A DNA stretch of 64,000 nucleotides from Alteromonas sp. RKMC-009. Its GTDB lineage: Bacteria > Pseudomonadota > Gammaproteobacteria > Enterobacterales > Alteromonadaceae. The stretch is from the NCBI RefSeq assembly GCF_003584565.2, contig NZ_CP031010.1:1488001-1552000 (forward strand). Direction: 5' to 3'. The notes beneath the pieces were generated by a model that searched no databases, was not told the origin of the DNA, and saw only the letters and a list, made by a program, of their open reading frames with translations. Shown piece by piece: positions 5,673 through 51,223 of the stretch. Made by a program: the position numbers and the translations under genes. Numbering within the stretch: position 1 is the stretch's first letter; every line of letters begins with the position of its first letter.

Positions 5673-6476
5673 ATGATCAATTTCAACAGCAATTCGTCAT
5701 CGACAACATCATTACTTCAGCAGGTGCAGGAAAAACAAACCAGCCTGATGGAGAAACTGGCGTCGGGCAAACGCATTAACAGTGCTGCCGACGGTGCGGC
5801 TGCGCAGCAAATCATCGACCGTCTTACTTCTCAGGTAGAAGGCAACCGTCAGGCAATTAATAATGCCTATGACGGTATCTCGCTGGCGCAGGTTGCGGAA
5901 AGTGGCTTGTCCGGCATTAATGACGATGTCAACCGTATCCGCGAACTCACCTTGCAGGCCGGCAGCGGCGTACTGAATGATGCCGATCGTCAGGCGATAC
6001 AGTCTGAAATTACCCAGTTGCAGGATAATATCTCGCAAACAATCGATCAGACGACCTTTGGCGGTAAGCCTCTGCTGAGTGCTGAAGGGGAAATTAATTT
6101 TCAGGTCGGGGCAAATCCTGATCAGTCCGTGGGCGTACGCACTTCTGATGTTGCCGGCAATCTGTCCGGTATTTTGAATATTGATATCACTTCCGGCGAT
6201 TTGGATGCTGCGTTGCAGGCGGCTGATGAAGCCGTTGAGTCTGTGGGCGGATTCCGCGCAGATCTCGGTGCGACACAGAATGCACTGGCCAGTACGGCAA
6301 GAAACCTCAGTGAAGCTGATGTGAATGTGTCTGCAGCCCGCAGCCGTATTCAGGATCTGGACTATGCGCAGGCGGTATCAGAAAATATTTCTAACAGCGT
6401 ACTGGGTCAGGCTGCTACTTCTGTGCAGGCACAGGCGAACCAACAACAAGGACAGGTTCTGGCATTGTTAAACTAG
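5673..6476 (+). CDS. Flagellin (short, without variable D2/D3 region)
   Basis: A 267-residue flagellin with a conserved N-terminal helical region (LMEKLASGKRINSAADG, residues about 26-42) and a conserved C-terminal region (NLSEADVNVSAARSRIQDLDYA, ending QGQVLALLN). The middle is only a short link, so the filament subunit lacks the exposed variable domain. The N-terminus starts MINFNSNSSST rather than the common MALTVNTNI type, so it is a divergent flagellin. A strong ribosome site (GAGGAGG) precedes the ATG by 5 bases. Subunits are exported by the FlhAB/FliPQR machine encoded downstream and polymerise outside the cell. The usual flaG, fliD and fliS do not follow it. Confidence 0.9.
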   Translation: MINFNSNSSSTTSLLQQVQEKQTSLMEKLASGKRINSAADGAAAQQIIDRLTSQVEGNRQAINNAYDGISLAQVAESGLSGINDDVNRIRELTLQAGSGVLNDADRQAIQSEITQLQDNISQTIDQTTFGGKPLLSAEGEINFQVGANPDQSVGVRTSDVAGNLSGILNIDITSGDLDAALQAADEAVESVGGFRADLGATQNALASTARNLSEADVNVSAARSRIQDLDYAQAVSENISNSVLGQAATSVQAQANQQQGQVLALLN

Positions 6477-6501
6477 AACGGGTGTGATTACGTTTTAATC
6501 A

Positions 6502-6528
6502 AAAAGGCAGGTTAAACCTGCTTTTTTT
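6502..6528 (+). terminator. Rho-independent terminator after flagellin
   Basis: The stem GCAGGTT/AACCTGC closes on a single base and is followed by a run of seven T. It lies 30 bases after the flagellin stop and separates that gene from flrA. Confidence 0.85.
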
Positions 6529-6551
6529 GCTTCAGGAACAAGAATCAGTGT

Positions 6552-6579
6552 TTGCGAACTGATCTTTTACCGCTACAAT
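6552..6579 (+). promoter_or_regulatory. Probable sigma-70 promoter of flrA
   Basis: TTGCGA (6552-6557) and TACAAT (6574-6579) with 16-base spacing lie about 50 bases upstream of flrA. A sigma-70 promoter is expected for the top-level flagellar regulator. Confidence 0.45.
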
Positions 6580-6630
6580 CATGCAGATGCGCTAAACTGT
6601 AAATAATAAAAATGCGTTCTCGGGGAATAG

Positions 6631-8115
6631 ATGAAGGAAATTCTGCTCGTTAGTGATGACGGCGAACTCATTCAAAAATTAGAAACCGTTATCACGTTCA
6701 TGGGGGAAGCTTGCTACGGGCAATCTTTTGCGGATAGCTACGGCTATCTGAATACCCATACCGTTGAAGCGGTCATGATTGATTACGCCAGAGCTGATCA
6801 GGTTCAAAACCTGGTGGCGCAGTTTCCCCACATCCCGTTTGTCGCTATTCAGGCGCAGGATGGCCTTATTGCACCGAATTGCAATCTGGTCAGCACCGCT
6901 ACACTTCCTATTACTTACCCGGTACTGACTCAGGCAATTCATCGTTGCCAGGAATATACCCGTCACCGTCCGGGCCCGGTAAAAACCGCTGGCCTGAAAA
7001 CCCGTCTTTTCCGTAGCCTTGTTGGTCGCAGCCAGCAAATTCAGACTGTACGTAAACTGGTAGAGCAGGTTGCCCCGACCGACGCCACCGTGCTGATTCT
7101 GGGTGAATCCGGTACCGGTAAAGAGGTTATCGCCCGTAACGTTCACTTTATGTCTGAGCGTAAAGAAGGCCCGTTTATTCCGGTTAACTGTGGTGCCATA
7201 CCCGGTGAACTGTTAGAAAGTGAATTATTCGGCCACGAGAAAGGTGCATTTACCGGTGCAATCAGTGCACGGAAAGGACGCTTTGAACTGGCAGAAGGCG
7301 GGACACTGTTTCTTGACGAAATAGGTGACATGCCGCTGCAAATGCAGGTTAAATTGCTGCGGGTATTGCAGGAACGGACATTTGAGCGTGTTGGTGGTCA
7401 TACACCGATAAAAGCCAATGTACGTATTGTTGCTGCCACTCACCGTAATCTGGAAAACATGATTAAAGACGATAAGTTCCGTGAGGATCTCTATTATCGC
7501 CTGAACGTGTTTCCTATCGACAGTCCTGCACTTCGTGAACGCCGCGAAGACATCCCGTTATTACTGCAGGAATTAATCAGCCGTATTCAGGGTGACGGCG
7601 TATCGGTGGTTAAATTCACCGAAATGGCTATTTCCTCTTTAATGGAACATGACTGGGCGGGTAATGTCCGTGAGCTGTCTAATCTGGTAGAGCGGCTGAG
7701 TATACTGTTCCCTAATCAGATCGTTGATATTCAGGACTTGCCGCCTAAGTATCAGTACGGTGAAATTCAGGCTTACGAGCCGGACTATCCGGAAGAGTTG
7801 CTTGAACGCGATGCATTCAATGAATTGTTCGCCGAATCAGCTGCTTCGGAAGATTTACGTTCACCGGTTGAAGATTCGGTTTATGCTTCCCCCCGTGAAG
7901 AAGGCGCGGACTCTTCCCAGCTACCGGAAGAGGGTGTGAATCTTAAAGAGTATCTGTCGGAACTGGAAATTAACCTGATCATACAGGCTCTGGATCAGCA
8001 GGACTGGGTCGTTGCCCGCGCTGCTGATAAACTGGGCATGCGCAGAACCACTCTGGTTGAAAAGATGCGCAAGTATGAAATTCAACGGGAAGAGTCGATA
8101 TCGTCAGATAATTGA
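6631..8115 (+). CDS. flrA: Flagellar master regulator FlrA/FleQ (sigma-54 activator)
   Basis: A 494-residue enhancer-binding protein. It has a FleQ-type degenerate receiver domain (residues 1-130), an AAA+ domain with Walker A GESGTGKE (158-165) and the sigma-54 contact loop GAFTGA (205-210), and a C-terminal helix-turn-helix (about 450-485). FlrA/FleQ starts the polar flagellar cascade with sigma-54 and, in relatives, is tuned by c-di-GMP and by FlhG/FleN, which is also encoded here. It stands alone between the flagellin terminator and the sigma-54 promoter of flrBC, matching the Vibrio/Pseudomonas gene order. Confidence 0.95.
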
Positions 8116-45034: not shown

Positions 45035-45625
45035 ATGACTGATGAACTGCCTTTCTCACAGGCATGCGAAAATAACAAAGGGCCCATTTCTGCCATTTTG
45101 GAAGTGGCCCTGAGTCAATGTAAGCGTGTGCTTGAGGTGGGCAGTGGCACCGGACAGCATGCGGTGCACATTGCACCCTTGTTACCTCACCTGATATGGC
45201 AGACCAGTGATCAGCCGCAGTATCACGAAGGGGTACTGAAATGGATAGCTGCGTACCCGTCTGAAAATCTGTTACCGCCGCTTAACCTCACCGTGGGCAA
45301 AGACAGGTTGCCGTTTTCTGAATATGACGGTGTTTATTCAGCGAATACTGCTCATATTATGCAGAAAGCCGAAATTAAAATGATGATGCAGAGCCTGTCT
45401 GAATCACTGCCGCAAGGCGCAGTATTTTGCCAGTATGGCCCGTTTACAGACAACGGTGCATTCAGCAGCGAAAGTAACAGAGAGTTTCATCAACATCTGA
45501 TAGCCAGTGGCTATGGCGGTTACCGGGATATACAGGAATTGCAGGCATGGGCGCCGGCACTCACGCTGGAGAAAATTCATGAAATGCCGGCGAATAATTT
45601 GTTATTGCAGTGGGTAAAGAACTGA
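45035..45625 (+). CDS. DUF938 family SAM-dependent methyltransferase
   Basis: A 196-residue protein with a methyltransferase motif I (VLEVGSGTGQHAVHIA, about residues 32-47) and the DUF938 arrangement (ENNKGPISAILEVAL before it). The substrate is unknown. It is 24 bases after metH and before a terminator, so it is probably the last gene of the metA-metH transcript. Confidence 0.85.
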   Translation: MTDELPFSQACENNKGPISAILEVALSQCKRVLEVGSGTGQHAVHIAPLLPHLIWQTSDQPQYHEGVLKWIAAYPSENLLPPLNLTVGKDRLPFSEYDGVYSANTAHIMQKAEIKMMMQSLSESLPQGAVFCQYGPFTDNGAFSSESNREFHQHLIASGYGGYRDIQELQAWAPALTLEKIHEMPANNLLLQWVKN

Positions 45626-46733: not shown

Positions 46734-47624
46734 TCAGGGCGTTCCCAATGCTCTGGCAAGTCCGATAAAGGCTCTGATAAACGGTGCATCAGCATCACTC
46801 TTTCTGAACCCCATGTGCAGTGACTTGGCAATACCGTTTTTCCCGGGCCTGACAGTTGTCAGGTTTAAGCTGCCGTCCTGCTCTTCAATCAGCCATTTAG
46901 GCAGTGCACCAATGCCCCGGCCGGCACTGATCATTTGCAACATGATTTCAGTGGTTTCAATGGTTTTGTGCTTTTTCACTGTACAGCCTGCAGGCGTCAG
47001 AAAGTGGGAGAAGATGTCCAGCCTGGAAGGCTCTACCGGATAGGTCAGTAAGGTTTCTTCTGCCAGCGCTTGTGGCGGTACCCATTCACTGGCTGCCAGC
47101 CTGTGTTCGCGGCTCATTACCAGCACCTGCTCATAGCCGAATACCGGTTCGTATTGCAGAGAGGGCAGGTGAAGAGGGTCAGGTGTTAAAAGCAGATCAA
47201 TATCATAGCCATGCAGCGCCTGCAGGCCTCCGAACGTAAACTTTTGTCGTACGTCTACGTCTACCCCGGGATAATCCGCCAGAAACGGTTTGACGACCTT
47301 CAGGAGCCATTGATAGCAGGGATGGCATTCCATTCCGATGCGCAGCACGCCTTGTTTACCCGAGGCGATCTGACGCAACTGCTCTTCCGTGTGCTCAAAC
47401 TGGGGTAACAGCCGGTGGGCAAGATTAAGTACTGCATTGCCCGCATCCGTCAGTCGCAGTCGTCTGCCATCTTTTTCCCATAGCGGTGCACCGCTGTGCT
47501 GTTCCAGCTTTTTCATACTATGACTCAGTGCAGACTGGGTGAGATGCAGATGTCCGGCGGCTTCTGTGAGCGTGCCGTAGTCATGAATAGCAGCAATAAT
47601 TTTGAGGTGTTGACGGTCTAACAT
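46734..47624 (-). CDS. metR: LysR-family regulator, MetR-like
   Basis: A 296-residue LysR protein with an N-terminal winged helix (LTEAAGHLHLTQSALSHSMKKLEQ) and an effector domain. The effector domain shares MetR-type segments (GMECHPCYQWLLKVV; LLTYPVEPSRLDIFSHFLTPAGC). MetR activates methionine genes with homocysteine as co-inducer. Its place near metA/metH fits. I found no clear MetR box (TGAA-N5-TTCA) in the metH or metA upstream regions. Confidence 0.8.
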   Translation of the reverse strand: MLDRQHLKIIAAIHDYGTLTEAAGHLHLTQSALSHSMKKLEQHSGAPLWEKDGRRLRLTDAGNAVLNLAHRLLPQFEHTEEQLRQIASGKQGVLRIGMECHPCYQWLLKVVKPFLADYPGVDVDVRQKFTFGGLQALHGYDIDLLLTPDPLHLPSLQYEPVFGYEQVLVMSREHRLAASEWVPPQALAEETLLTYPVEPSRLDIFSHFLTPAGCTVKKHKTIETTEIMLQMISAGRGIGALPKWLIEEQDGSLNLTTVRPGKNGIAKSLHMGFRKSDADAPFIRAFIGLARALGTP

Positions 47625-48688: not shown

Positions 48689-48727
48689 GGTGTAGTCCTG
48701 CTAACTCGATTAAAATTCGCTGTCTCT

Positions 48728-48778
48728 GATAGCTTATGGCTATCTCCATTTACTCTATAATTCTATAAAGCTATCAGT
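48728..48778 (+). promoter_or_regulatory. Regulator operator 1 upstream of first carbonic anhydrase
   Basis: GATAGC-N5-GCTATC (48728-48744) contains ATAG-N7-CTAT, the form of an OxyR half-site. It is followed by TTCTATAAAGCTATCAGT (48761-48778). The last CTAT lies 31 bases from the CTAT of the inverted repeat. The site is between the divergent regulator and anhydrase genes. Confidence 0.7.
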
Positions 48779-48837
48779 CAATCTTAATAGTATCTGAATG
48801 TAGCAGTATTTTATTCAATTTAATTTAGGAGTATTAA

Positions 48838-49485
48838 ATGGACCACGTAATCTCTGGCGTAGCTAAATTCCAGCGTGATGTTTATCCTGAGAAAAAGGAA
48901 ACTTTCCAAAAATTAGCTAACGGTCAGAATCCGGAAGTGTTGTTCATCACTTGTGCCGATTCCCGTATCGATCCTAACCTGGTTACCCAGACAGACCCGG
49001 GTGAACTGTTTATCTGTCGTAATGCCGGCAACATTGTACCTCCACACAGCAATCAAACCGGTGGCATGACTGCTTCTATCGAATTTGCTGTTGCTGCTCT
49101 GGGCGTAACGCACATTGTTGTATGCGGTCACACAGACTGTGGCGCAATGAAAGGTGCATTGGCCCCTGAGAAACTGGACAGCCTGCCACATGTAAAGGAA
49201 TGGTTGGGCCATTGCCGTTGTGCCACTGAAGTTGTGAAAGAAAAGCACGGCGAACTGACTGCCGGTCAGCTTGGCGAAGTAACTAAAGAAAACGTGTTAC
49301 AGCAGTTACAACACCTACGTACTCACCCTGCTGTTGCTGCGAAGCTGGCTACGAAAGCTGTTCAGCTTCATGGTTGGGTTTATGACATTGAAACCGGCAT
49401 GATCCATTGTTATGACCCTAAAACGGAAACTTTTAAGGAAATGGAACAGGCCTATGCTGAGCGCACTCTGGTAGCAGGCGCATAA
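48838..49485 (+). CDS. Beta-class carbonic anhydrase (copy 1)
   Basis: A 215-residue enzyme that interconverts CO2 and bicarbonate. Zinc ligands Cys39, His98 and Cys101 and the Asp41-Arg43 pair (CADSR, HTDC) are all present. Cytosolic, no signal peptide. A GGAG site precedes the ATG. It is 9 bases upstream of a SulP transporter, so imported bicarbonate or leaked CO2 is probably handled by this enzyme. Confidence 0.95.
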   Translation: MDHVISGVAKFQRDVYPEKKETFQKLANGQNPEVLFITCADSRIDPNLVTQTDPGELFICRNAGNIVPPHSNQTGGMTASIEFAVAALGVTHIVVCGHTDCGAMKGALAPEKLDSLPHVKEWLGHCRCATEVVKEKHGELTAGQLGEVTKENVLQQLQHLRTHPAVAAKLATKAVQLHGWVYDIETGMIHCYDPKTETFKEMEQAYAERTLVAGA

Positions 49486-49494
49486 GGATAGCCT

Positions 49495-51036
49495 ATGAAA
49501 CTTGATTTATCGTTCAAAGAAATTAAAAGCGACTTACCTGCCAGTATTGTCGTTTTCTTTGTAGCTCTGCCGTTGTGCCTGGGTATTGCCCTGGCGTCCG
49601 GCGCACCGCTATTTTCCGGCGTAATCGCCGGAATCATCGGTGGTATTATCGTCGGTCTGGCCAGTGGTTCACGCCTTGGTGTGAGTGGTCCGGCAGCGGG
49701 TCTTGCTGTTATCGTTTTTGATGCCATCGGTACACTGGGAAGCTGGGAGTTATTCCTTTGTGCTGTGGTTCTGGCGGGTGTGTTTCAGCTAATTCTGGGC
49801 TTCATGCGTGCCGGATTTGTCGCGTACTTTTTCCCGACGTCAGTTATCACAGGTATGCTTGCCGGTATCGGTTTGCTTATCGTGCTTAAACAATTGCCAT
49901 ACCTGTTCGGCTGGCACTCTGATTTTCTGGGCGAAGAAGCCTTTAATCAGGTTAACGGTGAGAATACGTTCTCTGCCATTGAGCACGCGGTTTCTATGAT
50001 GTCTCCGGCTGCTATTGCCATTTCGGCAGTGTCTCTTGCGCTGCTGGTGATTTGGGATAAGTACCTTACAAAAGCACATAAAATCTTCCAGCTGATTCAG
50101 GGACCGATTGTCGTTGTGTTACTGGGTATCGTAGCTTCAATCATGCTGGCTCAGGCTGGTATGCCTTTGCAGGCTGATCAACTGGTAAGTTTACCGGTTA
50201 TCGACAGCTTCGAGGCGTTCAAGGCAGAAATGGCGTTTCCGGCGTTTTCGGAGATGCTGAACATTGACGTATTCACCATCGCGCTTGTTATGGCGGCGGT
50301 TGCCAGCATCGAAACTCTGCTTTGTGTTGAAGCGACTGACAAACTGGATCCGCAGAAAAATACCACGCCCACAAACCGCGAACTGAAAGCGCAGGGTATT
50401 GGTAACATCGTGTCTGGTCTGGTTGGTGGTCTGCCAATCACTCAGGTAATTGTACGCAGTTCTGCGAACATTGCGTTTGGTGGTAAAACGAAAGCTTCAG
50501 CCATTCTGCACGGTGTGTTTCTGTTAATTGCTGTATTTGCCGCTGCGTCTATGCTGAATCAGATCCCGCTGGCTTCTCTGGCAGCTATCCTGATTACTGT
50601 GGGTTATAAGCTGGCTAAGCCTGCTATGTTCAAAGTCATGTACAAAACGGGTTGGGAGCAGTTCCTGCCGTTTATCATTACCATTGGCGTAATGTTGTTC
50701 ACTGACTTGCTGACCGGTGTTGTTGTTGGTCTGGGTGTGAGTGTTTTCTTTACGCTTAAACACAGCTACCGCAACTCGTACCAGTTCACTGAAACAGTGA
50801 ACGAAGACGAAGGTGGCAGCAAAACGCACCACATTGTTATGGCCGAAGAAGTGTCTTTCTTCAACAAACCAAGCATTCTGAAAAAGCTGAACTCGATTCC
50901 CGGCAACTCAAAAGTTGTACTGGATTTCTCCAAGAGTAAGTCTGTAGCCTTTGATGTGAAAGAGCTGGTGAAAGACTATCTTAATCAGGCTGACAGTAAA
51001 AATATCAAAGTTGAAACGATTCAGTTTCAACAATAG
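49495..51036 (+). CDS. SulP family anion (probably bicarbonate) transporter 1
   Basis: A 513-residue membrane protein with about 10-12 helices, the SulP signature (SGPAAGLAVIVFDAIG) and a short C-terminal STAS domain (VVLDFSKSKSVAFDVKELV). SulP proteins move sulfate, bicarbonate or other anions, some with Na+. Linkage to a carbonic anhydrase strongly suggests bicarbonate. It differs in sequence from the second SulP transporter downstream. Confidence 0.9.
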   Translation: MKLDLSFKEIKSDLPASIVVFFVALPLCLGIALASGAPLFSGVIAGIIGGIIVGLASGSRLGVSGPAAGLAVIVFDAIGTLGSWELFLCAVVLAGVFQLILGFMRAGFVAYFFPTSVITGMLAGIGLLIVLKQLPYLFGWHSDFLGEEAFNQVNGENTFSAIEHAVSMMSPAAIAISAVSLALLVIWDKYLTKAHKIFQLIQGPIVVVLLGIVASIMLAQAGMPLQADQLVSLPVIDSFEAFKAEMAFPAFSEMLNIDVFTIALVMAAVASIETLLCVEATDKLDPQKNTTPTNRELKAQGIGNIVSGLVGGLPITQVIVRSSANIAFGGKTKASAILHGVFLLIAVFAAASMLNQIPLASLAAILITVGYKLAKPAMFKVMYKTGWEQFLPFIITIGVMLFTDLLTGVVVGLGVSVFFTLKHSYRNSYQFTETVNEDEGGSKTHHIVMAEEVSFFNKPSILKKLNSIPGNSKVVLDFSKSKSVAFDVKELVKDYLNQADSKNIKVETIQFQQ

Positions 51037-51057
51037 GTAACTTACCTTTCCCAACCT

Positions 51058-51110
51058 GCCGGTACTTCCGTACCGGCCTTTTAAAAAGGGGCGGCAATTT
51101 GGCCCCTTTG
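51058..51110 (+). terminator. Tandem terminator hairpins after the first anhydrase-SulP pair
   Basis: GCCGGTAC/GTACCGGC with a TTCC loop and a short T run (51058-51082), then AAAGGGGC/GCCCCTTT (51085-51109). They end the first operon, so the second pair has its own promoter in the rest of this 241-base gap. Confidence 0.8.
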
Positions 51111-51172
51111 CTTTACCTCCGCTAACTGCGCTATCGTTCATCTGACTGCATTATTGATACTTATCTCATGTT

Positions 51173-51223
51173 GATAGTTTTTATCTATCGCGAGATACGG
51201 TGTTTTTCTATAAAGCTATCAGT
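51173..51223 (+). promoter_or_regulatory. Regulator operator 2 upstream of second carbonic anhydrase
   Basis: GATAG-N7-CTATC (51173-51189) is followed by TTCTATAAAGCTATCAGT (51206-51223), the 18-base element also found at 48761-48778. The spacing from the first CTAT to the last CTAT is 31 bases in both copies. This is a duplicated and conserved control site. Confidence 0.7.

Follow-up and report, generated by a model that had tools for sequence, protein, structure and literature searches.

Two neighbouring operons of Alteromonas sp. RKMC-009, each of which pairs a beta-carbonic anhydrase (CA) gene with the gene of a SulP-family anion transporter, raise the question of which regulator governs them and through what site. 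Both lie in the 64,000-nucleotide stretch of contig NZ_CP031010.1 analysed here (positions 1,488,001 to 1,552,000; hereafter the window), both are preceded by the same composite sequence element, and the gene divergent from the first operon encodes a LysR-type, OxyR-like protein that is referred to here as OxyL (Table 1). From the evidence set out below, it is likely that OxyL has the element as its operator and controls both CA-SulP promoters, probably in answer to a shortage of CO2 or bicarbonate and not by sensing peroxide through a Cys199-Cys208 pair.

The element has the form ATAG-N7-CTAT-N19-CTAT-N4-CTATCA, a dyad followed by two further half-sites, and in the 5.0-Mb genome it has two exact matches, both 5' of the CA-SulP operons; no matches were found with one or two mismatches and three with three mismatches, while a reversed control pattern gave two. 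The distal half-sites fall within an 18-mer, TTCTATAAAGCTATCAGT, at 48761-48778 and 51206-51223, which at up to three mismatches has no other match in the window (shuffle expectation 0.03) and occurs four times in the genome, twice exactly and twice with three mismatches (reversed control, five). The composite element is real and goes beyond chance. The dyad alone was discarded as evidence because its frequency is at chance level: exact matches to ATAG-N7-CTAT number three in the window against about 1.0 expected from base composition, which is not significant, and matches with at most one mismatch number 14 against 14.75 expected. The third exact dyad of the window, at 45500-45514, lies within an open reading frame and is likewise at chance level. 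When the 149 bases before CA1 were compared by blastn with the 241 before CA2, only the 18-mer and stretches of up to seven bases were common to both, so that the upstream region as a whole was not recently duplicated. The same operator in front of both operons had been claimed in a preliminary description of this locus, and both copies are exactly as described there. Its 31-base distance between CTAT blocks holds from start to start (dyad CTAT to last CTAT), although the bases between them number 27, and its label of half-site for ATAG-N7-CTAT was wrong, as this is a full dyad made up of two half-sites.

Conservation across genomes indicates which parts of the element are under selection. A consensus was drawn from 66 sites with at most one mismatch, reduced to 48 non-redundant sites at less than 80% identity (L112, L051, L052 and L053 were left out), and reads TGATAG-N7-CTATCACGA-N7-TAT-NN-TTCTAT-N4-CTATCAG. 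Positions belonging to the search pattern are conserved by construction, and only the others are informative. Strong among the latter are T -1, G0, C16, C18, G19, A20, T28, T30, T33, T34 and G49 (for example, T -1 in 47 of 48 sites, C16 and A20 in 46, T28 and T30 in 43 and C18 in 42), while the flanks of the element are near background. Since these strong positions lie outside the search pattern, they constitute independent evidence for selection on the element. Its architecture also differs from that of OxyR sites, which are described as two dyads of the ATAG-N7-CTAT type in tandem, 7-10 bp apart (PMC8787470). The two distal half-sites face the same way, 8 bp apart, and an ATAG left half matching in at least three of four bases is nearly absent from them (3/48 sites at positions 24-27 and 1/48 at 32-35). 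For a second tandem dyad at intervals of 7, 8, 9 and 10, such a left half was found in 2, 3, 3 and 0 of the 48 sites, and seven or eight of the eight bases in 0, 3, 0 and 0. The tandem-dyad reading was rejected on these 48 sites; a genome search for tandem dyads had returned 18 matches, all with three mismatches (nine places, both strands), versus 28 for the reversed control. As judged from the aligned sites, the operator is one OxyR-type dyad with two same-facing half-sites and not a pair of tandem dyads.

Support that does not depend on the pattern comes from loci found with OxyL itself, of which 23 were recovered and the 20 close ones used (L021-L023, at 22-24% identity, were left out). In 17 of these 20 oxyL upstream regions the two parts of the element stand at the same spacing, with 0-1 mismatches in the 8 bases of the dyad and 0-1 in the 10 of the distal pair. 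Conservation upstream of orthologous operons, on which the preliminary description had staked its claim, is thereby borne out in these regions and in the 66 sites, 48 of them non-redundant. The other three regions (L006, L007 and L008) carry the dyad only, with one mismatch, their distal pair being mismatched at 5-6 of 10 positions; in L006 and L008 neither a CA nor a SulP gene is divergent from oxyL, in L007 (Salinimonas profundi) an extra CA gene (6260-6889) without a SulP partner lies beside OxyL, and in all three loci full elements precede CA-SulP operons elsewhere. Because the dyad-only loci L006 and L008 have oxyL without a divergent CA or SulP gene, the comparison suggests a division of labour in which the dyad would serve recognition and autoregulation, while the CA-SulP promoter would be controlled through the distal pair.

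The element and OxyL occur together. With the ortholog threshold for OxyL placed at 280 bits, below which the next match has 173 bits, 34 of 295 genomes of the window's family carry the element with at most one mismatch (40 sites), 34 carry an OxyL ortholog, and 33 are the same genomes; the element is thus present in 33/34 genomes with OxyL versus 1/261 without (11 genera; Fisher p 2e-41, kinship not being accounted for). The two exceptions are G288, which has a one-mismatch site and no OxyL, and G129, in which the element of the oxyL-CA intergenic region (L121; OxyL 67% identical) has lost 8 bp and with them one distal CTAT unit, as judged by eye against G149; one distal CTAT unit may be enough in this genome. 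A further 34 genomes have OxyR-grade matches only (143-173 bits), and the element was found in none of them; both OxyR cysteines were present in all 12 that were inspected. In a class sample of 369 genomes, OxyL matches at E 1e-60 or better occur in six and the element in four, three of these being members of the window's family that have OxyL and the other G424, from outside the family, with one mismatch and no OxyL. Within the order of G319, one of 85 genomes was positive, G319 itself. The reversed control pattern gave no match in the listed rows of the family-genome and class-sample scans. Entries named Microbulbifer and Zhongshania were among the OxyL homologs in the matches listed.

The genes that follow the element point to inorganic carbon. 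At the 40 family sites the next gene is a CA gene in 35 cases, a SulP gene directly in two (G001, G047), a universal-stress-protein (USP) and Na+/H+ antiporter (Mrp) cluster in two (G087, G071) and neither in one (G288); for the second site of G100, the next gene was taken from identical sequence in L002. In a wider set of 67 distinct sites, drawn from loci chosen for the element or OxyL with duplicates removed by sequence, it is CA at 62, SulP at two and neither at three. The gap from element to CA start has a median of 58 nucleotides (nt) and a range of 50 to 90, with one of 273, and a divergent OxyL gene lies within 63 nt at 45/67 sites. A strict CA-only regulon is weakened by the SulP-only and Mrp loci. 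In the latter two, G087 (L113 4551-4622) and G071 (L114 5156-5251), a short stretch that looks like the beginning of a CA gene was seen by eye between the element and the USP/Mrp cluster, as if a CA gene had formerly been present downstream of the element. In G288 (L112 4581-4628), the one-mismatch site lies upstream of a gene that was named dps-like by eye and is perhaps an OxyR-type site. A tree of the CA proteins contains six label changes, and CA has switched SulP partner or been re-duplicated several times.

The regulator itself is OxyR-like, but its sequence does not support calling it OxyR. OxyL exceeds the gathering cut-offs of HTH_1 (67.5 bits) and LysR_substrate (145.1 bits). Genes of LysR-type regulators typically lie divergent from a target gene, with a T-N11-A dyad in the intergenic region, and this arrangement is present here: ATAG-N7-CTAT contains T-N11-A and lies 40 nt from the oxyL start, with CA1 divergent from oxyL. 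The protein shares 36% identity with E. coli OxyR and 24% with the genome's own two-cysteine OxyR-like protein (L043); its closest named relatives belong to Alteromonas confluentis (91%) and to other Alteromonadaceae. OxyL resembles E. coli OxyR in the helix-turn-helix (HTH) region (SQPTLT/SQPTLS), and the predicted structure (pLDDT 89.0) is most like OxyR structures, consistent with an OxyR fold. Where E. coli OxyR has HCLR at 198-201, OxyL has HHFH, so that Cys199 is replaced by His and the cysteine pair of OxyR is incomplete, while the Cys208 position is retained; Pro also occupies the position of Thr129. Among 120 homologs listed of 2302 found, 117 carry His and three Gln at the 199 position, and all 120 carry Cys at the 208 position; in the diverged relatives inspected, the 199 position is never Cys and the 208 position again is Cys. 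OxyL scores 203 bits against the NCBIfam OxyR equivalog cut-off of 329, a strict cut-off in that the genome's two-cysteine protein also falls below it (182.7 bits), and 105.3 bits against the CbbR cut-off of 450. In a 40-protein tree, 14 two-cysteine OxyRs and 26 OxyL-type proteins fall on opposite sides of a split with 100/99 support, the genome's own two-cysteine protein lying on a long branch; since it was midpoint-rooted, the tree does not show which state is older. The preliminary description was therefore right to place an OxyR-like gene beside the first copy, whereas its identity as OxyR proper is not supported, given His at the Cys199 position, the 203 of 329 bits, the position outside the two-cysteine clade and the missing second tandem dyad. 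Several close homologs bear the NCBI name 'hydrogen peroxide-inducible genes activator', which is probably misleading because the peroxide-sensing cysteine is missing. OxyL relatives have HLFY in G528 (beside CA-SulP2) and HPLH in G003 (beside CA-SulP1), and HHFH as a requirement for CA-SulP control is weakened by both.

Taken together, these observations are compatible with a mechanism in which an OxyL dimer would bind the dyad TGATAG-N7-CTATCA and a second dimer, placed two to three helical turns further downstream, would occupy the distal pair CTAT-N4-CTATCAG, for joint control of both promoters. LysR-type activators are commonly modelled with an anchoring dimer and a promoter-contacting dimer; by analogy, the dimer at the dyad would anchor the complex, that at the distal pair would touch the promoter, and the signal would shift the second dimer. 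Positions A53, A55 and T57 (39, 36 and 39 of 48 sites) could be part of a -10 element, and if they do mark it, the distal pair would end just upstream of the -10. As the dyad lies 40 nt from the oxyL start, it may also set the expression of oxyL itself. Peroxide would not be sensed through a Cys199-Cys208 disulfide; judging from gene content alone, the signal is most likely a shortage of CO2 or bicarbonate, or something linked to it, for example pH or a metabolite. The cell would then presumably raise carbonic anhydrase and SulP transport, keeping bicarbonate for carboxylation reactions, which suggests that an OxyL-type protein may also manage inorganic carbon.

Several observations weigh against this reading. 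L007 has a CA gene beside OxyL yet lacks the distal pair; in G087 and G071 an intact CA or SulP gene is missing beside OxyL, yet the full element is kept before USP/Mrp genes; and the full element of L020 precedes a CA gene without an adjacent SulP gene. Because of G087, G071 and L020, the distal pair and CA-SulP genes are not strictly coupled. OxyL relatives outside the family (G319, G413 and G528; 41-46% identity) lack the full element, and for one relative beside CA-SulP2 (L135/L162) the best element match has seven mismatches. A promoter scan of the locus performed at chance level (five found versus 4.0 expected) and placed no -10 or -35. Bicarbonate is, moreover, a putative substrate of SulP1; CA-less E. 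coli was rescued by one SulP of Thiomicrospira pelophila but not by another (PMC12628692).

A more far-reaching version of the proposal is doubtful, and is put forward only as a speculation. Here OxyL would be a direct sensor of CO2, bicarbonate or a metal-bound form, with the conserved His-His-Phe-His replacing the peroxidatic cysteine beside the invariant cysteine in an OxyR-type pocket, and would act as a dedicated inorganic-carbon regulator of marine bacteria with its own 48-bp operator and a regulon that includes the aspartyl-protease/PPFKR-repeat gene pair described below.

Somewhat less probable, and in our view unlikely, is that OxyL acts as a one-cysteine redox sensor whose Cys208 is modified under oxidative stress, with CA and SulP serving redox or pH homeostasis and not carbon supply. 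The invariance of Cys208 in the homologs and diverged relatives above would fit such a role, as would the single-cysteine H2O2 sensing of Deinococcus radiodurans OxyR (PMC2225504), but the peroxidatic position is His or Gln throughout the 120 homologs and not Cys in the diverged relatives, and a CA or SulP gene follows the element at 64/67 sites. It is more unlikely still that the two-cysteine OxyR-like protein of this genome, alone or along with OxyL, has its site in the element and that the CA-SulP operons belong to a peroxide response. The ATAG/CTAT half-site is that of OxyR (PMC8787470). The HTH regions are alike, and the genome does encode a two-cysteine protein (L043). Furthermore, G288, the sole family genome with a near match and no OxyL, has its site upstream of a dps-like gene, dps being a classic OxyR target. 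Set against this are the absence of the element from all 34 genomes with OxyR-grade matches but no OxyL, the missing second tandem dyad (left half in at most 3/48 sites per interval) and the position of the element in the intergenic region beside divergent oxyL at 45/67 sites. A leftover of CA-module duplication without a functional operator, as might be imagined from the 80% identity of CA1 and CA2 and the repeated partner changes and re-duplications of CA, has next to no probability and was rejected, since the flanks have diverged to background while non-pattern bases are still conserved, the spacing is kept in 17/20 regions not chosen by pattern and the window copies have nothing longer than seven bases in common besides the 18-mer.

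With OxyL control of the CA-SulP promoters as the preferred explanation, the regulon may reach beyond the two operons. At G000:C1:1649763 (L053 1501; L163 5764), a dyad and a CTATCA stand at operator distance with the middle CTAT absent, between the gene of a secreted-looking PPFKR-repeat protein without a Pfam match and an aspartyl-protease-like gene. Homologs of this gene pair adjoin the OxyL relatives of G319 and G413 and one of the two in G528 (the PPFKR match is weak in G413 and G528; E 5e-7 and 1e-6), and in G289 they lie within 2 kb of the CA-SulP1 operon. ATAG-N7-CTAT is present with at most one mismatch in all five divergent promoters of the pair; the combined shuffle p is 7e-5, for loci whose pattern had been noticed before it was tested, but a composition-matched control dyad, GATA-N7-TATC, is also exact in G528 and has one mismatch in G413. 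On moderate evidence, the pair is a candidate for a third OxyL target. The preliminary description had proposed a two-operon inorganic-carbon regulon with its own regulator, which is upheld in part: a regulator of its own is supported by the tight genomic co-occurrence of the element with the adjacent OxyL, while two operons are only a minimum, which autoregulation and the third candidate target would extend.

Table 1. Features of the OxyL/CA-SulP locus, in window coordinates
Feature	Position	Strand	Remarks
MetR-like LysR gene adjoining oxyL	46734-47624	same strand as oxyL in relatives	208 bits against a cut-off of 382
OxyL, LysR-type OxyR-like regulator, 317 aa	47735..48688	-	divergent from CA1
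Putative operator copy 1, TGATAG-N7-CTATC ... CTAT-N4-CTATCAG	48727..48777	+	element end 61 nt from CA1 start
Copy 1 dyad ATAG-N7-CTAT	48729..48743		40 nt from oxyL start; proposed recognition and autoregulatory site
Copy 1 distal half-site pair CTAT-N4-CTATCA	48763..48776	+	proposed promoter-side site
CA1, beta-carbonic anhydrase, 215 aa	48838..49485	+	Pro_CA
SulP1, SulP-family anion transporter, 513 aa	49495..51036	+	STAS domain not detected
Two strong predicted hairpins between operons	51058..51109	+	folding z -3.55 for 51040-51115
Putative operator copy 2	51172..51222	+	element end 56 nt from CA2 start
Copy 2 dyad ATAG-N7-CTAT	51174..51188		pattern match
Copy 2 distal half-site pair CTAT-N4-CTATCA	51208..51221	+	pattern match
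CA2, beta-carbonic anhydrase, 219 aa	51278..51937	+	80% identical to CA1 over 209 CA1 residues
SulP2, BicA-like SulP transporter with STAS domain, 547 aa	51941..53584	+	profile matches

The remaining features of the locus concern the operons themselves. The beta-carbonic anhydrases have the zinc-site motifs CxDxR and HxxC, which appear as CADSR and HTDC in CA1 and as CADSR and HSDC in CA2; both proteins match Pro_CA (170.3 and 173.7 bits), and by Pfam PF00484 they are the only two beta-CA genes of the genome. A third SulP gene over the cut-off lies outside the locus (G000:C1:843774). Against the NCBIfam BicA equivalog cut-off of 880 bits, SulP2 reaches 537.2 and SulP1 137.3, by which SulP2 is classed as BicA-like only and SulP1 as another SulP type. 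The operons are separated by a 241-bp gap, in which the predicted hairpins are a possible terminator of the first operon; they were not among the sites of a terminator scan (seven found versus 2.5 expected). By tblastn, a MetR match was seen flanking oxyL on the same strand in several close relatives (L001-L003, L005, L006, L117, L121 and L122).

Comparison with known systems sets OxyL apart from each of them. In contrast to E. coli-type OxyR, OxyL has His in place of Cys199 and Pro at the Thr129 position, does not reach the OxyR cut-off and groups apart from the two-cysteine clade, and its operator would consist of one dyad and a direct half-site pair, linked to CA-SulP genes. Promoters of the BenM/CatM type, governed by other LysR-type regulators, combine one strong dyad with weaker promoter-proximal sites, and the present element is similar in having a near-perfect dyad and, on the promoter side, two weaker same-facing half-sites 8 bp apart; it differs in its ATAG/CTAT half-site, its OxyR-like regulator, its genes and presumably its signal. 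The OxyR of D. radiodurans is likewise an OxyR-like protein with a single sensing-type cysteine, but it senses H2O2 and regulates katE, dps and mntH (PMC2225504), whereas the cysteine kept by OxyL aligns with E. coli C208 and its linked genes are CA-SulP. A more general caution follows for proteins named 'hydrogen peroxide-inducible genes activator' by NCBI, which can be without the peroxide-sensing cysteine and linked to quite other genes. In a literature search of titles and abstract openings, no tie between an OxyR-like regulator and CA-SulP operons was found, which is not proof of its absence in print. On the side of the target genes, a parallel is offered by can2-sulP of Acidithiobacillus ferrooxidans, where a beta-CA gene neighbours a SulP gene whose product is a predicted bicarbonate carrier; that organism is an autotroph with CbbR-regulated cbb operons, and OxyR is not named in the main text of the report (PMC6458275). 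With CmpR, CcmR (NdhR) and CbbR, OxyL has in common that a LysR-type regulator is tied to inorganic-carbon transport genes, although its profile match to CbbR is much weaker (105 bits versus a cut-off of 450). The effectors are ribulose-1,5-bisphosphate (RuBP) and 2-phosphoglycolate (2-PG) for CmpR and 2-oxoglutarate and NADP+ for CcmR (PMC3401165). In the papers cited, these carbon-uptake regulators come from autotrophs, whereas the host of OxyL is presumably a heterotroph, and the present finding offers a named regulator, a precise candidate operator and a small proposed regulon that are open to test in Alteromonas-type bacteria.

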